This document shows, in pieces, positions 3,062 to 24,114 of a stretch of DNA of 24,434 bases. The notes beneath the pieces are model-generated. The model worked only from the letters and a program-made list of their open reading frames with translations. It was not told where the DNA came from and searched no databases. Position 1 is the first letter of the stretch; each line of letters begins with the position of its first letter. The position numbers and the translations under genes are program-made. The stretch spans positions 1 through 24,434 of IMG/VR virus record IMGVR_UViG_3300035034_003097. The stretch is one strand, 5' to 3'. This DNA comes from a virus.

Positions 3062-3346
3062 TTAACTCATAATCAAATTACCATCTTCATCAAATTGCTG
3101 TGACTTCGAGAAACGCTTGTGTTGTTCGTTGTGGCATTTTTTACACAATAACTCCAGGTTCTCCTGATTCAAACTGATTGCTGGATCCTTAACATTATGT
3201 ATTGATAGTTTTATAATGTGATGAACTTCTTCTCCTAAAGCACCACAACGTTCACACTTACCATTTGCATCTCGTATCTTGATTTCTCTAGCTATACGCC
3301 ATGCTACTGATTTATAGAATCTATGTAACTCTTTAGGCTTTCTCAT
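3062..3346 (-). CDS. HNH endonuclease
   Basis: A 94-residue metal-dependent DNA nuclease of the phage packaging-associated type. The fold is clear: a CxxC knuckle (Cys31, Cys34), the His pair HH at 42-43, Asn63 in the QENLELLC stretch, a second CxxC (Cys68, Cys71), and the final His at 72 and 76. In many cos phages such an HNH protein works with the terminase in cutting at cos, and the terminase genes follow a short distance downstream here. The start overlaps the end of metK by 14 bp, which suggests the two are co-translated. Confidence 0.88.
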   Translation of the reverse strand: MRKPKELHRFYKSVAWRIAREIKIRDANGKCERCGALGEEVHHIIKLSIHNVKDPAISLNQENLELLCKKCHNEQHKRFSKSQQFDEDGNLIMS

Positions 3347-4463
3347 ATAGATTTCTCAATTCGGTTATCTTATCATCTACATTTTCCCAACGAACATCTA
3401 AATCTTCTCTACCAAAGTGTCCATACTTTGCTAACTCCTGGAACTTAACTTTATCAAGGTTGAGTTCTTTTCTTATGTTTTCTGGTCTAAAATCAAATAC
3501 ATAATTTACGATTGCTTGTATCTCTTCATCAGATGTAACACCAGTTCCAAATGTATCAACCAAAACACTTACTGGCTTTGCTACTCCAATAGCGTAGCTT
3601 AAGTGTACCTCGCAGTGTGTGGCCAAACCTGCCCCTACAACGGCCTTTGCTACGTATCTGGCATAATAAGCCGCACTTCGATCAACCTTGCTTACGTCCT
3701 TACCTGAAAAGGCTCCACCACCATGTTTACTGTAGCCACCATAAGTATCAACAATAATCTTTCTACCTGTTAGTCCTGAATCGGCATATGGACCACCTAT
3801 CACAAACTCTCCTGTTGGATTGATTAATACTTCCGCATCTATAATCGTATCGAAATCAAATACTTTAGTCAGGACTTCATTGATAATAATTTCCTCATAC
3901 AGTTCTCGTTTGACGCCTATTTTTGTTTGAGCTGACACTACTATTGTTTGTACTTTCTTTGGTCTCCCATTCTCATACCCAACAGATACCTGACATTTAC
4001 CATCAGGTCCAAAGATGTGTGAGTATTTCTCTTTACGAATTTTATCCATCTCTTTTGAGATATGATTCGCTAACATAATCGGCAATGGCATGAATTCTTG
4101 TGTTTCATTACAAGCATAACCAAACATAATCCCCTGATCACCTGCACCTTGTTCGTGTGATTCAGTTGAATTGACACCAAGAGCGATATCAACTGATTGT
4201 TTGCTTATCTTTTCCATAACTACAAATTCATCTTCATAGCCTATCTCTTTAAGTTTATGTTTTGCTATCTCTGCATAATCTACTTTCGCAGATGTGGTTA
4301 CTTCCCCAAAGACAAATACTAAATCATCTTTGATTGCCGTTTCAACTGCAACTCGAGCGTTTTTATCTTGTTCTAATATAGCATCTAGTATTGCATCACT
4401 GATTTGGTCACAAACCTTATCCGGATGTCCACTAAATACAGATTCACTTGTAATTACTTGCAT
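3333..4463 (-). CDS. metK: S-adenosylmethionine synthetase carried by the prophage
   Basis: Methionine adenosyltransferase: makes S-adenosylmethionine from methionine and ATP. Hallmarks are HPDK near the N-terminus (residues 13-16), the GDQGIMFGYA motif (about 109-118), and the phosphate loop GGGAFSGKD (about 247-255). At 376 residues it is near full length (cellular enzymes are about 380-400) and shows no break, so it is probably active. Its ATG follows an AAGGAG site. It lies inside the minus-strand phage block, overlapping an HNH gene, and downstream of a DNA methylase gene that would use its product. A terminator just upstream (4488-4511) would limit read-through from the genes before it. 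Not a typical host locus for metK. Confidence 0.95.
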   Translation of the reverse strand: MQVITSESVFSGHPDKVCDQISDAILDAILEQDKNARVAVETAIKDDLVFVFGEVTTSAKVDYAEIAKHKLKEIGYEDEFVVMEKISKQSVDIALGVNSTESHEQGAGDQGIMFGYACNETQEFMPLPIMLANHISKEMDKIRKEKYSHIFGPDGKCQVSVGYENGRPKKVQTIVVSAQTKIGVKRELYEEIIINEVLTKVFDFDTIIDAEVLINPTGEFVIGGPYADSGLTGRKIIVDTYGGYSKHGGGAFSGKDVSKVDRSAAYYARYVAKAVVGAGLATHCEVHLSYAIGVAKPVSVLVDTFGTGVTSDEEIQAIVNYVFDFRPENIRKELNLDKVKFQELAKYGHFGREDLDVRWENVDDKITELRNLYEKA

Positions 4464-5246: not shown

Positions 5247-6458
5247 CTATAGTGACTTATTTTCAAAGTAATTAAAATCGTTAAGCGGAGACCTCTTTCC
5301 ATCTCTAATCAAATAGCAATTCTCATTTGTTTCTTTATGTTTTATATAACGTTTAACAATAACATCGACAAATTTCTCATCAAGTTCCATTAAATAGGAT
5401 TTACGATACAATTGATCAGCTGCTATCATCGTTGAACCTGAACCACCAAATAAATCTAGTATGGATTCGTGACGTCTTGAGGAATTACTGATTGCTTTTC
5501 CTACAAGTTCTAATGGTTTCATTGTTGGGTGTTCTTCATTCTTTCTTGGTTTGTTATATTCCCAAATAGTGTCTTGAGAACGATCATCCACAAAGTAATG
5601 AGCTGCGCCTTCTCTCCATCCATAAAGAATTGGTTCATGTCTCCAATGATAATCTTGTCGACCAAGTACTAATGCATTTTTCACCCACACTAAACATTCA
5701 GCTAATTTGTACCCAGCGTTCTTAAATGCATTTCTAAAGTTTAATCCTTCCGTATCTGCATGGCAACAATAGATTGCTCCACCAGGTTTTGTGTGTTCAT
5801 ACATATTTTTAAAAGCAGCCAATAAAAAAAGATAGAAAGTATCGTCTTCCATCTTATCGTTTTTAATCTTACCAGCAGTTCCTTCATAATCAACATTGTA
5901 AGGCGGATCAGTAAAAATCATATCTATTTCTTTTCCATCAAGTAATGTCGCTACTTGTTCTGCGTCAGTTGAATCACCACACATAACTCTATGTGTGCCT
6001 AGCTCATAAATATCACCAGGCTTTGAGAATGGATCATCTGGTACTTCATCATCAATATCGAAATCATCATCAGCTGCGTTATCTGGTAATAACTTTTCCA
6101 TTTCCTCAAAACCAAATTGAAGCATATCCAAATCAAGTCCTTCTAACTCTTCTTCAAGTTTCGATAAATCCCAAGTAGCTAGTTCAGCTGTCTTATTATC
6201 TGCTAAGCGAAATGCTTTGATTTGTTCGTCGTTTAAGTCATCTGCGATAATACATGGCACTTCTTCTAAACCAAGTGACACAGAGGCTTTTAGACGGGTA
6301 TGACCGGCAATAATGACGTTGTCACTTGTAATAACAATCGGAACTTTAAATCCGAACTCTTTGATCGAATTAGCAACTGCTTTTATTGCCTCATCGTTGT
6401 TTCTTGGATTGTTTTCGTACTCTTGGAGTACCGATACTTGTTTCATCACTATATTCAT
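5247..6458 (-). CDS. ParB-domain DNA methyltransferase (N4-cytosine or N6-adenine, beta class)
   Basis: A DNA methylase of 403 residues with two parts. The N-terminal about 100 residues form a ParB/Srx-type domain (NPRNNDEAI, then the AGHTRLKA motif near residues 52-59). A linker rich in Asp/Glu follows (about 125-145). The methylase domain begins with catalytic motif IV DPPY at 184-187 and carries the SAM-binding motif FGGSGST near residue 340; IV before I is the beta-class order. The start is taken as ATG 6458, because the upstream in-frame GTG lies inside the Shine-Dalgarno GAGGAGG that serves this ATG. It overlaps the preceding HTH gene by 68 bp. In phages such enzymes usually protect the genome from host restriction. 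No restriction partner is adjacent. Confidence 0.92.
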   Translation of the reverse strand: MNIVMKQVSVLQEYENNPRNNDEAIKAVANSIKEFGFKVPIVITSDNVIIAGHTRLKASVSLGLEEVPCIIADDLNDEQIKAFRLADNKTAELATWDLSKLEEELEGLDLDMLQFGFEEMEKLLPDNAADDDFDIDDEVPDDPFSKPGDIYELGTHRVMCGDSTDAEQVATLLDGKEIDMIFTDPPYNVDYEGTAGKIKNDKMEDDTFYLFLLAAFKNMYEHTKPGGAIYCCHADTEGLNFRNAFKNAGYKLAECLVWVKNALVLGRQDYHWRHEPILYGWREGAAHYFVDDRSQDTIWEYNKPRKNEEHPTMKPLELVGKAISNSSRRHESILDLFGGSGSTMIAADQLYRKSYLMELDEKFVDVIVKRYIKHKETNENCYLIRDGKRSPLNDFNYFENKSL

Positions 6459-6918
6459 TCGTCCAAACCTCCTCACCTTTTTCTAGGCGTTTCTCCATTA
6501 GCTCTATTTCAGCTTTCTTTTCATTGTATTCAATACCATACTTCGTTATCAGCAAATACTTAATTGCTTGAATATCCGGTAATGATTGCTTTTTATATTT
6601 TGTGATACGTTTCTTAGTACCTGTTTTGGTTTCCTCAATGACAGTCTGTGTTTCTTCATATTCAAACCCAACTGCACGTTGATAAATCGCATCAACTAAC
6701 TTTTGTTTTAACTCTTCATCACCAAACTGGAACGCATCATTTAATCTCTTATGAACTTTTCTCAATTTGATAACCGTTTTTTCTGTGATACCCAAATACT
6801 CAGCTACTTGTTTTTGAGTAGCTCTTTTAGATATCATTTCCGATATCGCTTTTAACTTGTTCTCTAGATAACCAGATTTCTCCCAACGCTCGTATGTATC
6901 AAGCATTTTTCCTTTCAT
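6391..6918 (-). CDS. HTH protein, terminase-small-subunit-like
   Basis: A 175-residue protein with an N-terminal helix-turn-helix (TQKQVAEYLGITEKTVIKLR, about residues 33-52). A basic middle part follows (AIYQRAVGFEYEE, then a KTGTKKRITKYKKQ stretch) and a charged C-terminal tail. This layout is shared by phage DNA-binding proteins often labelled small terminase or transposase-like. Since a P27-like small terminase lies next to terL, this is more likely an accessory DNA-binding partner, perhaps of the methylase gene it overlaps by 68 bp; that pairing is inference. It is the first gene after a 270-bp gap and so may head a transcript. Confidence 0.6.
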   Translation of the reverse strand: MKGKMLDTYERWEKSGYLENKLKAISEMISKRATQKQVAEYLGITEKTVIKLRKVHKRLNDAFQFGDEELKQKLVDAIYQRAVGFEYEETQTVIEETKTGTKKRITKYKKQSLPDIQAIKYLLITKYGIEYNEKKAEIELMEKRLEKGEEVWTNEYSDETSIGTPRVRKQSKKQR

Positions 6919-14867: not shown

Positions 14868-15449
14868 TTATTCAAATTTCTTTATTTTTTCTTTCAAAAG
14901 ATTGATGAGCTGTACTCTTCTCATCTGAACCATGCTTCTTGATTTCTTGACGATTTCAGCTATAGCAGCATCCGTCTTTCCTTCATTAAATAGTTTGATA
15001 ATCAGTTGATCGGTAGCTTCAAATTCATCAACAAGACTCCATATGAGGTCTGCTTGGTATTGTTCTGCTTCTTTTTCTTGTTTTGTTTTGTAGCTACAGT
15101 CTGCAAACTCTAATTCATAATTGTCGTACATGTAATCCATCGATACAGGAAGACCTTTTCTAACAAATGGACATTGGCTGCAATCTTCTCTACATTTCAC
15201 AAGACCAAACTTTTCAGAAGGAATCATGCATCTAGATTCCGTGTCTTTTCGTCTTCTTTCGTTACGTTGTTCATTTCGATGCCAGTGGAAATACTCCTCA
15301 GTACAAGGGATGAAACGTAGATCACCATCACCATCTTTCATAGGAATCCAGCATGGTAATGTGTTCTCTATATCACTTTGTAAATCTTCTACTGATCCAT
15401 ACCCATGAAGTTTAGGATTTTGATTCTTTGTTTCCTTTGATAATTTCAT
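14868..15449 (-). CDS. Possible early regulator with a cysteine cluster and C-terminal HTH
   Basis: The first gene of the minus-strand early block, 193 residues. It has four clustered cysteines (Cys74, 86, 90, 93), likely a zinc site. An Arg/Glu-rich stretch (HRNEQRNERRRKD, 57-69) precedes them, resembling sequences in ICE and phage regulators. The C-terminal HTH of sigma-region-4 type (about 140-180: ATDQLIIKLFNEGKTDAAIA, then VKKSRSMVQMRR) could bind DNA. Its exact target is unknown. The GGAGGT ribosome binding site lies in the 3' arm of a hairpin (15459-15493) followed by a T-run, so its expression is probably controlled at the RNA level. Confidence 0.6.
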   Translation of the reverse strand: MKLSKETKNQNPKLHGYGSVEDLQSDIENTLPCWIPMKDGDGDLRFIPCTEEYFHWHRNEQRNERRRKDTESRCMIPSEKFGLVKCREDCSQCPFVRKGLPVSMDYMYDNYELEFADCSYKTKQEKEAEQYQADLIWSLVDEFEATDQLIIKLFNEGKTDAAIAEIVKKSRSMVQMRRVQLINLLKEKIKKFE

Positions 15450-15458
15450 AAAAAAAAT

Positions 15459-15493
15459 ACCTCCAAATCAGATTTTTATTCTGAAATGGAGGC
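15459..15493 (-). promoter_or_regulatory. Leader hairpin covering the ribosome binding site, attenuator-like
   Basis: In the minus-strand transcript CCTCCA (15488-15493) pairs with TGGAGG (15460-15465), continued by TCAG/CTGA around a nine-base A/T-rich loop, with a UU/UU internal loop. The 3' arm contains the Shine-Dalgarno GGAGG of the gene starting at 15449 and is followed at once by TATTTTTTTT. It can be read as a translation-blocking stem or an intrinsic terminator before the first early gene. Confidence 0.6.
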
Positions 15494-15513
15494 ACTCTTT
15501 TCGTAATATGTAG

Positions 15514-15595
15514 ACAGTTCAGTGGCGTAGTAAAGAGAACGGATTTGTACATCCATTTCAATTTACAGGCCACTCTTCACATTTGAATGAACTGT
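15514..15595. other. Long imperfect inverted repeat in the divergent control region
   Basis: ACAGTTCA plus GTGGC (15514-15526) is complementary to GCCAC (15569-15573) and TGAACTGT (15588-15595), with 14 unpaired bases on one side; an inner GGAT/ATCC stem lies at 15541-15554. It would form a structured leader in the minus-strand early transcript, or a separate small RNA. No open frame of note covers it. Confidence 0.45.
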
Positions 15596-15612
15596 ATGAT
15601 TTTATTGTTTTG

Positions 15613-15676
15613 GTACTTCAATGTGACCAACCGAGCAAAGGCTGTGAAGTACTGACTAGGTTAGCTAATTCCTAGT
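15613..15676. promoter_or_regulatory. Two operator-like inverted repeats
   Basis: GTACTTCA (15613-15620) and TGAAGTAC (15645-15652) form a perfect 8-bp pair around 24 bases. Directly after it, ACTAGG (15655-15660) and CCTAGT (15671-15676) form a 6-bp pair around a TTAGCTAA palindrome. The second lies just downstream of a minus-strand TATACT (15685-15690), a possible -10 of the early promoter that has no clear -35. This is where a repressor such as the small HTH protein would be expected to bind. Confidence 0.45.
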
Positions 15677-15721
15677 ATGATATTAGTATAAAACCTTTAC
15701 ACGATTTAAAAAACGGGTGTA

Positions 15722-15754
15722 TTGTTGATTCTTTGTTGATTTTTTATTGATTCT
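15722..15754. repeat. Three tandem 11-bp repeats
   Basis: TTGTTGATTCT, TTGTTGATTTT and TTATTGATTCT follow one another without a gap (15722-15732, 15733-15743, 15744-15754). A period of 11 bp places the same face of each unit near one side of the helix, as expected for cooperative binding of a regulator. They lie between the early-gene side and the promoter of the HTH-HamA-HamB operon. Confidence 0.6.
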
Positions 15755-15781
15755 TTACAAATGCGAATTTTTTCTTTGTAA

Positions 15782-15810
15782 TTTCAAATAATAATTTTAT
15801 ATGATATAAT
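15782..15810 (+). promoter_or_regulatory. Promoter of the HTH-HamA-HamB operon
   Basis: A consensus TATAAT (15805-15810) with an extended -10 TG (15802-15803) lies 27 bp before the ATG of the HTH gene. The -35 position at 17-bp spacing reads TTTCAA, a weak match, which suits an extended -10 promoter. The tandem repeats lie about 30 bp upstream. Confidence 0.65.
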
Positions 15811-15836
15811 TTAAATTAATAAAGGAGGTGTTTTCT

Positions 15837-16046
15837 ATGACCTATAACTACAATGGATTATGGAAATTGATGATAGACAATAACCTCAAGAAGAAAGACA
15901 TAATGGTAAAGGCTAAAATTTCATCATCAACTATGGCTAAAATAGGAAAAGGACTCCCAGTTAAATTGGAAGTCCTAGCAAGAATATGCGAATTGCTTAA
16001 ATGTAATATTGGAGATATTTTAGACATTCGCATTGAGGGGGAATAA
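15837..16046 (+). CDS. Small Cro/CI-type HTH regulator
   Basis: A 69-residue DNA-binding protein that is almost only an HTH domain of the HTH_26/YozG-like group: LWKLMIDNNLKKKDIMVKAK (about 8-27), then ISSSTMAKIGKG and VLARICELLKCNIGDILDI. Such small regulators often precede methylase and defence operons in Firmicutes. The ATG at 15837 is chosen over the GTG at 15828 because the latter is part of the ribosome binding site AAAGGAGGTG. It starts the operon, with the HamA-like gene following after 3 bp, so it very likely controls the operon through the repeats upstream. A role as phage repressor too is possible, but it lacks the protease domain of CI. Confidence 0.88.
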   Translation: MTYNYNGLWKLMIDNNLKKKDIMVKAKISSSTMAKIGKGLPVKLEVLARICELLKCNIGDILDIRIEGE

Positions 16047-16049
16047 ATC

Positions 16050-17501
16050 ATGAAAAAACTCTGCTTCAGTTCATACTTTAAAATTCTTTCACAAGCAAAA
16101 TCTGGTGGGAATCAAGAAGATCTATTTAGAAGTATAATAGGTCCACTTTTTGCAAGTGGAGGTAGATACAACGATGATAGAAGTACAATAACTCGATATA
16201 AAAGTGGTAAGGATGATATTCCTACCAATTTGTCAAGTGCTGCTCATAGTGGAGATGTCAATTATTTAGTTACTGAATATAGCAAAGATTTAATAAAGCG
16301 ACTAGCTCCAGACAAAAGGGCTAATATTATACTTGCAGTTAAAGATTTACTTACAAGCGAAAACACCTTACCTGAAAACACAATAATTGGTGATGATACT
16401 TCTTATTCCAAAGCCAATATTATTAACAGTTCTACATTTTCAATCCCATCTTTTCTAGCAAATATAACTTTGTACTGTCTAAAGATTTCTAATGAAGTCA
16501 CTCCAGAAATAAATAATACTTTTCTTGATTCCTTTGATTCAAGACGGAGTGAAATTAACTTTAATGATAATCCATTAAGAGTAGATCCAGAACTAACATT
16601 TACAGCTAGACAAGAATCATTTGATAGAACGTTTTTTGAAATTACTCATCCCGGTTCTTTAACAACACCTAATCACTCAACGATAAAAATATATGGCTTA
16701 AGTTTTCAAAACAAAGAGTTCAATTTTAGAGATATCAACTCATTTGTACTTAACAATATAGGAAGATATGTTTTTTCTAGAGCTAAAAGAAATGAATATA
16801 AAACAAACGACAACTTTGAAACTCTAGCATTTGACGCAGTCAAAGAGTTAAAAAGAATTAATTCATCATTTTCGTTGGGAGATCATTTTTCTGAAGTCAT
16901 GCTCTACTCTTTTTTGGAATGTGCTCTTAAAGCTCCCAAGATACTAAGTAAAGTTGAGCTAAACAATATAGGTGGTTCCTATAACAGTTCTAGTTCAGGA
17001 GTGCACCTAATGATTTCAAATGATGTAAGCTTAAGAAATCACCAATTAGCATTCGGTGCATCAAACGTACTGAACAATATCAATATCGCAATAGACAATG
17101 CATTTTTACAAATTATAGAAATAATTAATAATCTAGCGGATGAGATAGATTTGGTCGAGAGTAACATTCTAGATTCTTCTTTTGATAAAGAGACCACTAA
17201 ATTCTTGAAACGAACTCTTGTTCCAACAAAAACAACTATGTCATCTCCAGATACTTCATTTGGAGTATTCTTAGGTTACTCAATTTCACTAGATGGAACC
17301 GACAGTCTCAGCAATATTGATTTCGCTAATCATATGAGAAACAGGATGCAAACTGATATCTTATCTGTTATACCTTATATTCAAAACAAGATTGCTACCT
17401 TAGGGCTAAGTGGTTATTCATTTTACTTATACATACTTCCATTGATAAATGCTGAATCTGATAAGGATACAATAATGAACTCCTCTTTGGGGGTAGAATA
17501 A
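16050..17501 (+). CDS. hamA-like: HamA-like (DUF1837) protein with N-terminal extension and altered nuclease motif
   Basis: A 483-residue protein in two parts. Residues 1 to about 180 are an extra domain I do not recognise, with a RSTITRYKSGKDDIP segment (44-58) and a helical following part. From about 180 the sequence follows HamA/DUF1837, the nuclease subunit of Hachiman defence: FSEVMLYSFLECALKAPKIL (280-299), SGVHLM (316-321), and QLAFGASNVLNNINIAIDNA (332-351). In active HamA the last motif reads GESK, a PD-(D/E)XK catalytic pair; here it is G-A-S-N (A337, N339), and the usual Asp near GVHL is Ser. Glu282 is kept. So the nuclease is probably inactive, unless other residues serve. HamA is normally about 250-300 residues. 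The stop codon is followed at once by the ATG of the helicase. The family call is from motif memory. Confidence 0.72.
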   Translation: MKKLCFSSYFKILSQAKSGGNQEDLFRSIIGPLFASGGRYNDDRSTITRYKSGKDDIPTNLSSAAHSGDVNYLVTEYSKDLIKRLAPDKRANIILAVKDLLTSENTLPENTIIGDDTSYSKANIINSSTFSIPSFLANITLYCLKISNEVTPEINNTFLDSFDSRRSEINFNDNPLRVDPELTFTARQESFDRTFFEITHPGSLTTPNHSTIKIYGLSFQNKEFNFRDINSFVLNNIGRYVFSRAKRNEYKTNDNFETLAFDAVKELKRINSSFSLGDHFSEVMLYSFLECALKAPKILSKVELNNIGGSYNSSSSGVHLMISNDVSLRNHQLAFGASNVLNNINIAIDNAFLQIIEIINNLADEIDLVESNILDSSFDKETTKFLKRTLVPTKTTMSSPDTSFGVFLGYSISLDGTDSLSNIDFANHMRNRMQTDILSVIPYIQNKIATLGLSGYSFYLYILPLINAESDKDTIMNSSLGVE

Positions 17502-20114
17502 ATGATAAAACCAAGAAATCTTACTTTGGGTGAAGAAATCTTTGCTGATATAGAATCCAACGAGTATTTGCATGAAATCTTCTCTTCAATTACTTATAAC
17601 TATACACTCAAGCTATTTGATGGTATCAACAGATCACCAAAGGAAATCAACATTAATGATGCGTTAAGATTTGCAGATTTACTATCAAAATCCACATATA
17701 AAGAAGAACATAGAGAGTTAGCCCAACAAATAATAGCCATACTAAACTACCTTTACCCTGACAATAAAAAAATAGATCTCTTTGCACATTCAATCTTACA
17801 AGTCATCGGTAATTATAGAGGTCTTGAGTTATTAAACAAGGGACAAAACTACATATCAATCTTTGATGAAATTTATTCTAAATTTGATAAAAAATATCTA
17901 GCAATTCCTTATCAGGATGGAATGTATTTTTTCCATCCACAAAAAGCAATTTACGACCGATTAAATGAAGAATCTTTCAGTTACTCTGGACCAACTTCTC
18001 TCGGAAAATCCTTCTTATTAAGAACTTTCATAAAAGATAAGATTATAAACGGATATGACGGTAATTTTGCAATATTAGTACCAACAAAAGCATTGATAAG
18101 TGAAATCACAAAAAGTGTAATTAATGATTTAAAACAGTTTCTAAATGAAAAAAATTATGTTGTAATTAATTCTTCTGGTGCTCTTGCTTTAAAAGATGAT
18201 CATAAATATATATTTATTCTAACACCAGAAAGAATGTTGTACTTATTGATTTCGTTCCCAGCAATAAATATTGATTATTTATTCATCGATGAAGCTCACA
18301 AAATATCAACCAATGATGAACGGAGTGCATTCTACTACAAAGTCACTAGTATGCTTAGTAATAGGAATAATAAAACTAATGTAGTCTTTGCTTCTCCAAA
18401 CATCCCAAATCCTGATGAGTATTTAAAACTATTGCCTAATCCAGAAGACCCCAAAGAAAGAACGCTAATTACATCGTATTCTCCTGTAAGTCATATTCAA
18501 TATTTAGTAGATCTTGTCTCTAATCAAATTTCTATTTATAACGACTTGACTAATTCGTTTAATCAATTGTTCAACATACGATATAATGATGAATCAAATC
18601 ACATTGACTTTATCAAATATATGAGTAAACATGATAATAAGGTGCAAAGTATTGTTTATTGTAATTCAAAAGCAAATGCTATTGAATTTGCACGAGAATT
18701 TGCGAAAAATTTACCTGTGAGGGATGATATAGAAGAATTGATTGCTCTTTCAAATGAGATTAAAAATGAGATTCATTCAGATTATTATCTTCCTGAATTA
18801 ATTAAAAAGGGAGTTGCTTTCCATGTCGGTTACTTGCCTAACTACATACGTTCAGATATAGAGGATTTATATAGAAAACAAATGATCACGACACTATTCT
18901 GTACTAGTACGCTAGTTGAGGGAGTTAATCTTCCAGCTGATAATCTTTTTATAATGAGCTATCAACGATCTAGAAGTATCATGAGCGCGGTTGAGTTTAA
19001 AAATTTAATTGGTCGTGTAGGTAGAATTGAATATAACCTATATGGAAATGTTTTTTTGGTAAGATATAAAAATAACCAAGATATTGAAAAATACGAGAGT
19101 TTAGTCACCGATAAAATACCTGAACAAAAGCTTTCTCTTTTATCAGCACTAACAAAACCCCAAAAACAAAAAATTGTAGAGTCATTAGTTCAAGGAAATA
19201 TTAAGCTTCTAAAGTATCCAAAAGATCAAACACAATCTAATTATTCATTAATGAGAAAATTCGCTTTGATTTTATTAAAAGATATTACATCTGAAAAGAG
19301 AAGTATAGTTGTTGACACTTTTGCTGATTTTCTAAGTGAAGACTCAATGCAAGTTATCAAAACAAACTTTTTAAAAGACAAAAAACATACTCCTGACGAT
19401 GATATCAATATATCAATAGATCAAAATGAACGGTTAGCTGATGCTATAAATAATGGTTTATCATATCCGCCAGTTGTCAATGGTATTGTTGACTACAATG
19501 AACTTGTAGAGTTTCTTAAAAAACTAAGTTCGATATTTATGTGGGAATATTATGAAAAGTCAACTATTGGCAAAACAAATCAAGATGGTGATTTAGCTGT
19601 TTTAAGATGGTACGCGGTCGTTCTAGATCAATGGATGACTGGTTATGGATTAAGTCAAATCATAGCTAGAGCCATTAAATATAAACAGGAAGCAGAAAAC
19701 CAGACAATTCAAGTATATGGAAGCTTCATACCATATAATGATTCAAGAGAACACAGAAACATTGTAATATCCGATACACTTAATATTGTTGATAATATCA
19801 TATTATTTAAATTCTCTAACTACTTTTTAAGATTCTCAACTGAGTATAAAAACATACACGGTATTGAAGATAATTTTGAGAACGACTGGTATGAGTATGT
19901 AGAATATGGTTCAACTAACAAACTAACTATTTTCTTACAAAGAAATGGATTCACACGAGAAACATCAACATACATTAAAACCCACCAAGAACAATATGTT
20001 ACTATTTTGGAAGATGCAGTTAAGCTTGACAAATCTTTGCTCGAATGTAATAAAGAAACAGTTCGACAAGAGGTTCAACAAATACACTATAATCTCCCGA
20101 ATCTATTTGCATAA
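17502..20114 (+). CDS. hamB-like: HamB-like superfamily 2 DEAH helicase
   Basis: An 870-residue helicase of the Ski2-like kind found with HamA. The N-terminal about 150 residues are helical. Motif I is SGPTSLGKS (162-170, Lys169), motif II DEAH (263-266), motif III FASPN instead of SAT. The second RecA domain has CTSTLVEGVNLPADN and motif VI GRVGR (504-508), followed by EYNLYGNVFLV. The remaining 350 residues are a helical C-terminal part without a known motif. In Hachiman the helicase holds the HamA nuclease in check until it senses damaged or phage DNA. The gene starts directly at the end of the HamA-like gene (no gap), so the two are coupled. The catalytic motifs are intact, in contrast with those of its partner. 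Confidence 0.82.
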   Translation: MIKPRNLTLGEEIFADIESNEYLHEIFSSITYNYTLKLFDGINRSPKEININDALRFADLLSKSTYKEEHRELAQQIIAILNYLYPDNKKIDLFAHSILQVIGNYRGLELLNKGQNYISIFDEIYSKFDKKYLAIPYQDGMYFFHPQKAIYDRLNEESFSYSGPTSLGKSFLLRTFIKDKIINGYDGNFAILVPTKALISEITKSVINDLKQFLNEKNYVVINSSGALALKDDHKYIFILTPERMLYLLISFPAINIDYLFIDEAHKISTNDERSAFYYKVTSMLSNRNNKTNVVFASPNIPNPDEYLKLLPNPEDPKERTLITSYSPVSHIQYLVDLVSNQISIYNDLTNSFNQLFNIRYNDESNHIDFIKYMSKHDNKVQSIVYCNSKANAIEFAREFAKNLPVRDDIEELIALSNEIKNEIHSDYYLPELIKKGVAFHVGYLPNYIRSDIEDLYRKQMITTLFCTSTLVEGVNLPADNLFIMSYQRSRSIMSAVEFKNLIGRVGRIEYNLYGNVFLVRYKNNQDIEKYESLVTDKIPEQKLSLLSALTKPQKQKIVESLVQGNIKLLKYPKDQTQSNYSLMRKFALILLKDITSEKRSIVVDTFADFLSEDSMQVIKTNFLKDKKHTPDDDINISIDQNERLADAINNGLSYPPVVNGIVDYNELVEFLKKLSSIFMWEYYEKSTIGKTNQDGDLAVLRWYAVVLDQWMTGYGLSQIIARAIKYKQEAENQTIQVYGSFIPYNDSREHRNIVISDTLNIVDNIILFKFSNYFLRFSTEYKNIHGIEDNFENDWYEYVEYGSTNKLTIFLQRNGFTRETSTYIKTHQEQYVTILEDAVKLDKSLLECNKETVRQEVQQIHYNLPNLFA

Positions 20115-20155
20115 AAAAAGCGACTCAACTCAATTAAGAGCTGGGTCGCAATTTT
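20113..20155. terminator. Two-way terminator between convergent genes
   Basis: GCGACTCA (20120-20127) pairs with TGGGTCGC (20142-20149), including one G-U, and an inner CTC/GAG. A run of seven As (20113-20119) gives a T-run to minus-strand transcripts, and AATTTT (20150-20155) a weaker one to the plus strand. It would end both the hamB-like gene and the gene arriving from 20213. Confidence 0.8.
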
Positions 20156-20212
20156 ACAAATTCTTCTTTTTTTCATTTTTCTTGAAATTTTTTTTAATCC
20201 AACTACAATTAA

Positions 20213-21097
20213 TTAATTTTTTTTTACTCTTTTATTATATATTGAAATTATATCTTCAAAAAATGTATCAATTGAAATATCTGATAATTCTAATGGAAAT
20301 GCTGGGTTAACTAAATTATCATCAATTAGATCTTGGGTATTATAATATATTTTTGGAACTGTTTTACTAAAGTCAACAATCATAAGTGCACATCTTTCGT
20401 ACTTATAGTGTTCTCCCATAGATAAATCACGATTATTAATCGCACTAAAAAATGCAATAAAGTCCTCAACTTTAGTTTTATTTGTTTTAAAAGATATATT
20501 TCCTTTAATCATGTCCTGTTCATCATACTCGTACACAGGTGTCAAATAGATTTCTCCCATTGTTAACTCAGGATAGATCATGTGAAGATTTAAGGCTTCA
20601 GCAAAAGTTCTCTCAAATAATGTATCATTATTTTTACCAATGCTGCTTAATTGAGAACGGATATTTATTATCAATGAATTAGTAATAAATTTATCTCCAT
20701 ATGGGTCTGTATGATTACCAAAACTTAAAGGACCCCAATCTACTTTTCTTTTTGCAGGTTTAATCTCTTTCGGAATATATGAGACATCTTGGTTTTTCTT
20801 TTTTAAGAATCCATATACACCCAGCTCTGGTTTAGAAGCTTTAAGCGGAGGATTAATCTGTCTTTGATTTAATCCATATAGAACTAGACCTTCCTTAGCT
20901 AATTCATGGATATGATTGATTAACTTAGAAGAACGGATAAAACTCTCCTTCGCTTTTAAACCATTTGCAATTTTATGTCTATTCTCTAATTTCACAAATT
21001 TATCTGCATACAAAGAATGATTTTGAATAGCCCATTCTAATTCATTCTTAATCAATAAAACTTTGGCTTCAGCTATCTGCTTAACTTTATCATTCAT
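20213..21097 (-). CDS. Unknown protein, possible restriction endonuclease partner of the methylase
   Basis: A 294-residue soluble protein. The N-terminal 75 residues are helical and charged. The middle has a VDWGPLSFGNHTDPYGDKF segment (119-137). The most conserved-looking part is FERTFAEALNLHMIYPELTM (161-180) followed by GEIYLTPVYEYD (181-192), which could be a nuclease core with Glu162, Glu167, Glu177 and Glu182, but I cannot assign a catalytic motif. I suggest a type II restriction enzyme because, without the IS, it would be divergent from an N6-adenine methylase with about 117 bp between. It has an AGGAG ribosome binding site. The IS insertion 40 bp upstream splits its apparent promoter. 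Its C-terminal end faces a shared terminator. Confidence 0.45.
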   Translation of the reverse strand: MNDKVKQIAEAKVLLIKNELEWAIQNHSLYADKFVKLENRHKIANGLKAKESFIRSSKLINHIHELAKEGLVLYGLNQRQINPPLKASKPELGVYGFLKKKNQDVSYIPKEIKPAKRKVDWGPLSFGNHTDPYGDKFITNSLIINIRSQLSSIGKNNDTLFERTFAEALNLHMIYPELTMGEIYLTPVYEYDEQDMIKGNISFKTNKTKVEDFIAFFSAINNRDLSMGEHYKYERCALMIVDFSKTVPKIYYNTQDLIDDNLVNPAFPLELSDISIDTFFEDIISIYNKRVKKN

Positions 21098-21145: not shown

Positions 21146-22237
21146 TAAAGAAAGCCCAACTTTTATGATTGATGCTAGTATAAAAATAGGACATATTAAA
21201 CATAGAGAGTACATGATAAGATAAGAATTGAAAAGGAGCGAACTTTCTATGGCAAAAGAACTTTCTTTAATTGATTTTATTGAATTATTTGGCAGTGAAG
21301 AAAAATGCATATCCTATCTTTTTAACACAAGATATCCAAACTATTCTTGCAAAAAATGTCATGGCACTCGGTTGTCAGCAATAACAACAAGACCTCATCA
21401 ATATTACTGTAAAGACTGTCACACTCAAATTTCAGTCCTCAAAAGCACACTGTTTGAAAATTCGAAGATTTCTTTGAACAAATGGTTTTTGGCAATCTTT
21501 TTAACATCTAGAGATAAGCGTGGCGTTTCGTCATTAACATTATCTAGAGAATTGAGCATCGGTCTTCCGACAGCAATAGAAATGCTTAGAGAATTAAGAG
21601 TACTCATGGCCAAAAGAGATCAGGTGTACAAACTATCAGGTATGATTGAAATTGATGAGTTCTTTATTGGTTCATCCGGTGGTAAACAGGGTCGAGGGAC
21701 TTCAAAAAACAAGGTTATTATCGCTTTATCCCACCAAACTGTCGCTAAAAACAAGGAAACAGATGAGTTCATTGAAGTTTATAGGGATTCAACATCTGAA
21801 CTTTTTCAAGAAAGCAGCGACTACGAAATTTTAAATATTCCGATGTACTGCAAAATGATGGTTACTGAATCATTGGACAAGAAAACAATCAATCAATTCG
21901 TCACCGATAACATCGAAGTAGATTCTTTAATTGTAACAGACAAATATAGAGGGTATAGTAAACTTGTCGAAACTGGTAACCAGCATACAGCTATTGAATT
22001 TAATCCAGATGATAATCAGTATCATCATTTGCACATTGTTATATCCAATTTGAAGTCATTCGTACTTGGAACATATCACGGATTAGGTGCAGAATACCTT
22101 CAATCTTATTTGGATGAATTCTGTTACAGATTTAATAGAAGAAAATTACGTGATATACTGTTTGATAGACTATTAGAATTGACCATTAAAAACCAGTAGA
22201 TTTAAAACACAAAAGTTGGGCTTTCTTTATAGTCATG
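21138..22237 (+). mobile_element. Complete IS1595-family insertion sequence, 1100 bp
   Basis: The ends are 30-bp inverted repeats (21138-21167 and 22208-22237) that differ at two positions (the outermost base and base 28). They share the core ATGACTATAAAG followed by AAAGCCCAACTTTT. The element holds a single intact transposase gene and is flanked by a perfect 8-bp direct repeat TTATTTAA. Structure and exact duplication suggest a fairly recent insertion of a still functional element. It sits in the divergent promoter region between the unknown gene at 20213 and the methylase gene. Confidence 0.92.
21249..22199 (+). CDS. tnp: IS1595-family transposase (ISXO2-like)
   Basis: A 316-residue transposase. 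The N-terminal zinc ribbon has Cys34, Cys37, Cys54 and Cys57 (CKKC, CKDC); a helical LSRELSIGLPTAIEMLREL segment follows. The catalytic ISXO2-like domain has EIDEFFIG with the first Asp, IVTDKYRGY with the second Asp, and a C-terminal HIVISNLKSFVLGTYHG, matching the DDNK type of this family. The end CYRFNRRKL is also typical. An upstream in-frame TTG (21228) exists, but the ATG at 21249 follows AGGAG at 21234 and is the better start. No frame break, so it is probably active. Confidence 0.94.
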   Translation: MAKELSLIDFIELFGSEEKCISYLFNTRYPNYSCKKCHGTRLSAITTRPHQYYCKDCHTQISVLKSTLFENSKISLNKWFLAIFLTSRDKRGVSSLTLSRELSIGLPTAIEMLRELRVLMAKRDQVYKLSGMIEIDEFFIGSSGGKQGRGTSKNKVIIALSHQTVAKNKETDEFIEVYRDSTSELFQESSDYEILNIPMYCKMMVTESLDKKTINQFVTDNIEVDSLIVTDKYRGYSKLVETGNQHTAIEFNPDDNQYHHLHIVISNLKSFVLGTYHGLGAEYLQSYLDEFCYRFNRRKLRDILFDRLLELTIKNQ

Positions 22238-22314: not shown

Positions 22315-24114
22315 ATGATTGAAAAGGGTAAATACTTAACATCACAAATCGAATCACAATTAATTCGAGAAGTTCTAAAAAGCAACAAGAAAAAAGCGAA
22401 ATCTTCGTTCTTGAAAAAGTTAATGCTTGAAAATAATAATGAACTTAGTTTGTATTTAAGTAAACAAATAAAGAGATATACACTTAAAGAGGTGGAAAAC
22501 TTCTTTGAATCAAATTTAGATAAGAATATTAAAAAAAGTAATGGTGTTGTGTTTACACCCGAATTTATTATTGATTATATTTGCAATAGTAGTTTAAGAA
22601 ATTATAAAGAAGGAGAAACAATTTTAGATCCTGCTTGTGGTTGTGGTGCATTTGTTATTGGAGTTTTAAATTGGTTTTTTATGAATCTAAAGGATCAAAC
22701 AATCTCAATTCTAAAACAATCACTATATGCATTTGATATTGATTCTGACCATATTAGAAGAACAAAAATAATGATATATTTATTTTTAGAAATTAATGAC
22801 TTAAGTTTAGTTGACGAATCAGAACTAAATATCTATTCGATTGATACCCTTAAAGAAGATTGGAGCAAATTGACCAAGCTAGAATCATTCGATTACATAA
22901 TCGGTAATCCTCCATATGTAAATAATCATGATTTAAATGAAAATTATATTGAATTCTTAAAAAACAATTTTGAAACTGCTAGCAAAGGAGTGTTTAATAC
23001 TTTCTATGCTTTCTTAGAAAAAGGCACTCAATATCTTACAAATAATGGTAATCTTACTTTTATTATACCCAATAATTTTTTATCTATATCATCTGCTGAG
23101 CCGTTAAGAAAATGGTTATCTAGTGGAAGATATGTTGATTCAATAATAAATTTTGGAGAGAACAAGGTGTTTTCACCAATTATGACATATAATTTAATTA
23201 TTGAGTTGAACAAAAAAGATAAAAATAATCTAAAGTATTATGTAACCCCAAAGCTTAAAAACGATCATATCGCACAAGTTTTAAACGCCCAAATAAACTA
23301 TATTGATATTTCTTATGATTCATTAAATGATTCAAGCTGGAAACTAGTTTCACAAAAAATACAGAGAAATTTGCAAAAGATTGAAAACTCTGGAGAGAAA
23401 TTAAAATCAAGAATAAAGACTGGTATTGCTACACTACGTGACAAAATTTATTTAGTTGATGGTGATCGGATTCAAGGATATTATAAATTAGTAGATGGTA
23501 TTAAAATGGAAATTGAAGAAAAAATACTTAGACCAATCTACAAAGTGTCTAGAATCAAAAGTGAAGAGGATATTGATAAATACAGAAGTTTTATTATTTT
23601 TCCATATTTAAAGCAAGATGCAAAATATGAAGTAATGAGTGAAAATCATCTAAAGGAAACATACCCCAAAACTTATAAATATCTTCTAACTCAATATGAT
23701 ATTTTATCTAGCCGTGATGTCGGAAAAAACAAATATAAGGAATGGTTCCAATATGGAAGGAGTCAGGGACTTCACAATTTTGGTTTAAAATTATTACATC
23801 CGACATTTAGTGCTTTTCCAAAGTTTATTAAATTAGATGATTCAAACGCTCTTTTTAACAACGGATACGCATTAAACTGTGATATGAATGAAATCAACAT
23901 AATTCAAAAAATACTTAATTCTGTAATTATGGACTATTATATTAAACATACTAGTTATTCCATTAGTGGTGGATTCTATTGTTATCAAAAAAAATATATT
24001 CAAGACTTTTCAATTCCACTTTTAAATAATGAAGAGAAACACTACTTAGAAAACGAGAACAATAAAAAATATATAAATAATTTTCTTATAAAAAAATACG
24101 ATTTACAAATTTAA
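22315..24114 (+). CDS. N6-adenine DNA methyltransferase, gamma class (TaqI/Eco57I-like)
   Basis: A 599-residue SAM-dependent DNA methylase. Motif X-like VVFTPEFIIDYI (78-89), motif I ILDPACGCGAF (103-113) for SAM binding, and catalytic motif IV GNPPY (197-201) occur in the gamma-class order. The following GTQYLTNNGNLTFIIPNNF and the FSISS-type stretch match TaqI/Eco57I-type enzymes. The C-terminal half (about 330-590) is likely the target recognition domain; it ends with NSVIMDYYIKHTSYSISGGF. No PD-(D/E)XK nuclease is seen at the N-terminus, so it is not an obvious type IIG fusion. Its likely partner is the divergent gene across the IS. Own promoter and terminator are present. It would protect self DNA from that partner. 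Confidence 0.9.
   Translation: MIEKGKYLTSQIESQLIREVLKSNKKKAKSSFLKKLMLENNNELSLYLSKQIKRYTLKEVENFFESNLDKNIKKSNGVVFTPEFIIDYICNSSLRNYKEGETILDPACGCGAFVIGVLNWFFMNLKDQTISILKQSLYAFDIDSDHIRRTKIMIYLFLEINDLSLVDESELNIYSIDTLKEDWSKLTKLESFDYIIGNPPYVNNHDLNENYIEFLKNNFETASKGVFNTFYAFLEKGTQYLTNNGNLTFIIPNNFLSISSAEPLRKWLSSGRYVDSIINFGENKVFSPIMTYNLIIELNKKDKNNLKYYVTPKLKNDHIAQVLNAQINYIDISYDSLNDSSWKLVSQKIQRNLQKIENSGEKLKSRIKTGIATLRDKIYLVDGDRIQGYYKLVDGIKMEIEEKILRPIYKVSRIKSEEDIDKYRSFIIFPYLKQDAKYEVMSENHLKETYPKTYKYLLTQYDILSSRDVGKNKYKEWFQYGRSQGLHNFGLKLLHPTFSAFPKFIKLDDSNALFNNGYALNCDMNEINIIQKILNSVIMDYYIKHTSYSISGGFYCYQKKYIQDFSIPLLNNEEKHYLENENNKKYINNFLIKKYDLQI

Follow-up and report, generated by a model that had tools for sequence, protein, structure and literature searches.

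Results

Organization of the operon

The window, i.e. the whole stretch of DNA analysed here, is a contig of 24,434 bp from the IMG/VR virus IMGVR_UViG_3300035034_003097. Positions 15837-20114 carry three intact open reading frames on the plus strand with intergenic gaps of 3 and 0 bp, the same tight arrangement that the initial annotation had described. The operon is of the Hachiman type and consists of an HTH_26 regulator, a HamA-domain protein (HamA*) and a HamB helicase. The following features were assigned:

15783..15828, plus strand: putative promoter and Shine-Dalgarno sequence (extended -10 TGATATAAT, Shine-Dalgarno AAAGGAGG; by consensus only)
15837..16046, plus strand: HTH_26 (Cro/C1-type) regulator, 69 aa (Pfam PF13443, E 6e-15)
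16050-17501, plus strand: whole HamA* gene, 483 aa
16050..16586, plus strand: N-domain of HamA*, residues 1-179, all-helical (AlphaFold2; homologues in ABC-3C, LmuA and NACHT proteins)
16611..17498, plus strand: HamA (DUF1837) domain, residues 188-483, predicted to be catalytically dead (Pfam HamA; fold match)
16995..17066, plus strand: lost D-GEXK positions, S316 (16995-16997), A337 (17058-17060) and N339 (17064-17066), from the alignment with L033, L051 and L059
17502..20114, plus strand: HamB SF2 helicase, 870 aa (PADLOC HamB1; PDB 9wh1_B)
20119..20148, no strand assigned: hairpin, possible terminator, between convergent operons (arms GCGACTCA...TGGGTCGC)

The putative promoter at 15783-15810 (TTCAAA-N16-TATAAT with TG) has the top promoter-like score within 15400-20400, and a strong Shine-Dalgarno sequence (AAAGGAGG) precedes the regulator ATG at 15837. 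The extended -10 site claimed initially is therefore present as the best-scoring one, but its function as the operon promoter is only plausible because promoter-like sites are no commoner than in shuffled sequence (32 observed vs 29.6). A terminator-like site on the minus strand (20126-20143) lies inside the downstream hairpin.

The operon is divergent from minus-strand phage early genes, including one for a DUF2800 protein, which end at about 15449; the phage location proposed before holds. Downstream of the operon follow a type II restriction enzyme gene (20213-21097, minus strand; PADLOC PDLC03558, E 6e-92) and a type II methyltransferase gene (22315-24114, plus strand; PADLOC PDLC03335, E 5e-152), with a transposase gene of the IS1595 family between them (21228-22199, plus strand). 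The contig, which encodes DNA methyltransferases, also carries a phage-borne S-adenosylmethionine synthase gene (3333-4463, minus strand; PDB 3iml_A, E 3e-112) upstream of the terminase-side genes. A tRNA-Gly (TCC) gene at the contig end (24355-24428, minus strand) is possibly a prophage attachment site.

A HamB helicase next to a HamA that has lost its nuclease motif

The third gene encodes an intact HamB-type helicase, as had been suggested, and not a housekeeping helicase: the PADLOC model HamB1 (PDLC00190) matches residues 5-869 with an E-value of 0 and PDB 9wh1_B matches with E 4e-78. Pfam DEAD scored E 5e-11, and the DEAD/Helicase_C motifs are present in the form GPTSLGKS, DEAH and LIGRVGRI.

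The HamA-like nature of the second gene was confirmed by profile searches and by fold comparison. Pfam HamA (PF08878) matches residues 228-465 (E 2e-32), in line with the similarity to DUF1837/HamA expected for residues 180-483, and the 490-residue PADLOC model HamA1 (PDLC00164) matches residues 1-480 (E 7e-108). Superposition of residues 187-483, taken from an AlphaFold2 model of the full-length protein, gave AbpA (8zue_A) as the best fold match (Z 17.5, 249 residues, 3.6 Å), and E. coli HamA (8vx9_A) reached Z 14.3 (224 residues, 3.9 Å). The PDB sequence match to 9wh1_A is limited to residues 203-473. The profile similarities of the three genes are much stronger than expected by chance.

Hachiman (HamAB) is a two-gene operon of HamA (DUF1837) and the Ski2-like helicase HamB (PDB 8vx9; PMC12278908), and the catalytic motif of HamA is D-GEXK (PMC12278908; PMC12799240). 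The locus shares with it the HamA/DUF1837 domain and a full-length Ski2-like SF2 helicase in adjoining genes (gap 0 bp), but differs in the lost motif, the extra helical N-domain of about 180 residues and the HTH gene in front. In the alignment with homologues, the D, E and K positions of HamA* are occupied by S316, A337 and N339. A GTDB genome scan with the whole HamA* as query yielded 51 relatives. The motif E is absent in 26/26 distinct fused homologues, being replaced by A or, in the Alistipes MAG protein L061, by T, whereas three unfused outgroup HamAs (L033, L051, L059) retain D-E-K. Judged from these substitutions, the HamA nuclease of HamA* is dead, and because D-GEXK is lost the operon is a Hachiman variant with a dead HamA and not a canonical Hachiman system.

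In the HamA tree the fused proteins form one clade, the sole exception being L058, a sequence truncated by the end of its contig. Their sister clade consists of unfused HamAs which are also dead and are mostly found behind type I or type III restriction-modification (R-M) operons. By parsimony, loss of the active site would have preceded the fusion of the N-domain, and because the sister proteins lack the N-domain the loss does not require it. Among the closest relatives, pN/pS was 0.11-0.25 for the dead HamA domain; for the N-domain it was 0.28-0.39. Both parts are under purifying constraint and hence are not decaying.

Several other arrangements were seen among the relatives. A dead unfused HamA together with HamB occurs in L034, L036-L047, L049, L050, L052 and L057, several of these pairs being immediately preceded by type I hsdMSR or type III mod-res operons. 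Copies from several Actinomycetota and from a Tissierella genome are nearly identical, which points to recent transfer. In L023, where the motif of the unfused HamA reads G-K-N, an upstream gene (5888-6718, plus strand; 276 aa) encodes an NBR1-type Ig-like domain (N_BRCA1_IG, E 1e-10) and is a possible separate effector. In the viral contig L009 (6001-7278) and in Eubacterium sp. 14-2 (L056, 7001-8278), the N-domain-HamA gene is shortened to 425 aa by an internal transposase-like gene.

The N-domain is helical and lacks a catalytic signature

The additional N-terminal part of HamA*, about 180 residues as noted initially, was modelled by AlphaFold2 as an all-helical domain of nine helices (residues 1-180, pLDDT 90.8). 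No convincing family match was obtained in Pfam, NCBIfam or PHROG. Foldseek returned no fold match (best E 4.5 in PDB and 1.9 in BFVD), and the best Z in the VIA comparison was 2.1; this lack of matches does not by itself establish that the fold is new. No protease family was found in residues 1-180, and the domain has neither a conserved catalytic-looking set of residues nor a nuclease motif.

Two candidate assignments were discarded. A Pfam Peptidase_C53 hit on residues 15-70 (E 0.03-0.13) was below the cut-off, occurred in 1/33 members and was attributed to chance. A divergent HTH related to the adjoining regulator seemed possible by eye, and hhalign gave it a probability of 0.1%. For P0005, no close relatives in viral contigs were confirmed.

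Homologues of the N-domain in other immune systems

Further homologues were collected with the profile A3, which was built from eight members and whose seed includes some ABC-3C proteins, but no CTD6 or NACHT proteins. The homologues were drawn from sampled genomes, so that the frequencies of 13/398 and 6/391 are sample values; a second search by 'phylum' overlapped the first set and contributed little.

The N-domain was found at the N-terminus of CTD11 ABC-3C proteins (L004, L008, L097-L100, L110, L117, L118), followed by MC7 and a DUF2326 ATPase. It also fronts the CTD6 proteins L095 and L096 (E about 1e-9 to 1e-10), after which come MC2 and an AAA_23 ATPase, and these CTD6 proteins match the full-length PADLOC LmuA model PDLC03857 (E 1e-72). 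Furthermore, in L093 and L094 (E 1e-24 to 1e-28), one of them with SNaCT14, it lies in front of a NACHT NTPase. Lamassu and ABC-3C belong to one superfamily, in which the N-terminus of LmuA is the effector (PMC10586767). On the basis of these profile matches the N-domain is a portable module common to Hachiman, ABC-3C, Lamassu LmuA and NACHT proteins, and since it is common to three other unrelated immune systems, it looks like an interchangeable weapon.

The CTD11 proteins appear to parallel HamA. L125, which lacks an N-terminal helical domain, matches HNH_2 above the cut-off (E 4e-7), and L126 is similar; CTD11 proteins with the N-domain show no HNH match and a CxxC...CxxC zinc ribbon that was judged by eye to be degenerate. 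In this small sample, the ancestral HNH nuclease thus seems degenerate in the N-domain-bearing ABC-3C branch, i.e. possession of a helical N-terminal domain would go along with decay of the nuclease. Four other CTD11 proteins (L122, L123, L124, L127) have a different helical N-terminus, and in these the HNH match is weak, partial or absent. Their N-terminus is a possible distant relative of the N-domain; hhalign gave 9.7%, over residues 3-60 only.

Genomic location and mosaic evolution of the N-domain

Conserved phage early genes were present in the flank of 20/28 fused-HamA loci and 12/15 other N-domain loci. A homologue of the HTH gene P0001 was found at 11 and 9 loci of the two groups, respectively; the counts cover the fetched flanks, some of which are short. 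The regulator-type HTH gene was found at N-domain loci of both the Hachiman and the ABC-3C type. Most occurrences of the N-domain fall at a single prophage hotspot next to early genes, where the same HTH gene often lies in front. The fused architecture itself is conserved in more than 25 loci from several Bacillota families and one Alistipes MAG.

Within HamA*, the N-domain is less conserved than the HamA domain in 207/210 pairs (98.6%). Identity between the contig and L002 is 88-93% over the promoter and the HTH gene, drops to 57-71% over 16050-16550 and is mostly 76-90% beyond. The contig groups with L003 in the N-domain tree and with L002 in the HamA tree, and both groupings have starred support. 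Because identity dips over the N-domain and the two trees disagree, the domain recombines or diverges as a block.

Discussion

Comparison with known dead-HamA systems

The layout had been regarded as an unfamiliar form, a view that does not hold. The 490-aa PADLOC model PDLC00164 already spans the long form of HamA*, and the plan of an effector on a dead HamA is known from AbpA and from protease-HamA. AbpA combines a Cap4 nuclease with a dead HamA (PMC12278908; PMC12799240). AbpAB (PDB 8zue; 9wh1 is a relative) therefore follows the same plan of effector domain, dead HamA and HamB-like helicase, but AbpA uses a PD-(D/E)XK nuclease of the Cap4 type, whereas the N-domain of HamA* is an unrelated all-helical module. 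According to PMC12799240, protease-dHamA (HamMAB) carries a trypsin-like protease on a dead HamA, has an upstream MBL nuclease gene and needs oligomerisation; further single-origin HamA fusions are mentioned there. It resembles HamA* in that the dead HamA is fused to a module also found in other immune systems, but here there is neither a trypsin-like protease nor an MBL nuclease gene, the upstream gene being HTH_26.

The remaining relatives share the N-domain and differ in the sensor. In Lamassu/ABC-3C, where it heads CTD6 LmuA and CTD11 effector proteins, the sensor is an SMC/Rad50-like ATPase (LmuB/DUF2326) with a middle component instead of HamA/HamB. The bNACHT proteins (SNaCT14) with the N-domain are single-protein STAND sensors. 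The interesting part of the locus is the distribution of the N-domain over four systems together with its faster, mosaic evolution. In the literature searched, the coverage of which was partial, we found no description of the domain or of its sharing among four sensors.

Proposed function

The Hachiman assignment of the initial annotation holds, but it had been missed that the HamA nuclease is dead and that ABC-3C, Lamassu and NACHT proteins possess the N-domain too; these points alter which mechanism is likely. We think it probable that the locus is a prophage-borne abortive defence operon of the Hachiman (HamAB) family with a dead HamA adaptor, in which the N-domain acts as effector or recruits one. 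By analogy, HamB would serve as a DNA-integrity sensor for invading, free or damaged DNA, and the dead HamA would be kept only as a HamB-docking adaptor that passes the signal on. HamB working on free or damaged DNA may cluster or release HamA*, probably clustering the fused N-domain. The latter, a presumed replacement effector or recruiter of one, would be switched on by this HamB action, and the HTH gene would tune expression of the operon. As the N-domain has no conserved catalytic-looking set, we favour a non-nuclease mode driven by contact or oligomerisation.

The effector role is inferred from position and replacement logic for a domain with no catalytic signature or known fold. In support of it, LmuA, CTD11 and NACHT proteins all carry the N-domain at their N-terminus, the place of the effector. 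Against it, the confinement to a prophage hotspot would fit a phage-control role too, and R-M genes adjoining many of these loci could supply the nuclease. The dead HamAs of the unfused sister clade, which have lost the active site but have no N-domain, also speak against it. A more far-reaching version, to which we give slightly less than even credence, describes the N-domain as an undescribed, non-enzymatic-looking helical effector. It would have been retained by Bacillota prophages at a constant hotspot following an HTH gene and combined with at least four sensors (HamB/dHamA, two ABC-3C/Lamassu types and NACHT), the former nuclease decaying in every system that had one.

Rather unlikely, in our opinion, is that the N-domain serves in control or targeting by recognising a phage or host protein, e.g. 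to keep the system inactive during replication of its own prophage, with a killing nuclease provided in trans by neighbouring R-M genes. The early genes and HTH genes counted above at fused-HamA and other N-domain loci are consistent with this, as are the type II R-M pair downstream of the operon on the contig and the position of the sister clade's unfused dead HamA-HamB pairs directly behind type I/III R-M operons. A contact surface would also be expected to change quickly, and in 98.6% of pairs the N-domain has evolved faster than HamA. However, the N-domain is the sole domain in the effector position of the CTD6/LmuA form, the type of R-M system varies between loci and some loci have none.

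An ordinary Hachiman system, with HamA* as an active nuclease and a merely regulatory N-domain, is very improbable: the HamA fold and HamB are conserved, but S316, A337 and N339 replace all three catalytic positions and the E is absent across the fused clade. We give equally little weight to a decaying, non-functional remnant, for which the lost HamA active site and the IS1595 transposase within the adjoining R-M locus might speak, but which conflicts with three intact open reading frames, an architecture kept in more than 25 loci and pN/pS well below 1.

Implications

Returning to the N-domain as effector or effector recruiter, one small domain placed before four unrelated infection sensors constitutes a natural experiment. 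If the domain is toxic, its target would partly explain several defence systems together, including some for which the listed effector is hypothetical. The locus also bears on the stated puzzle of why AbpAB carries a dead HamA (PMC12278908): the HamA nuclease would have been lost in the ancestor of a large clade, whose HamA may act as an adaptor that is coupled to the N-domain or to neighbouring restriction enzymes.
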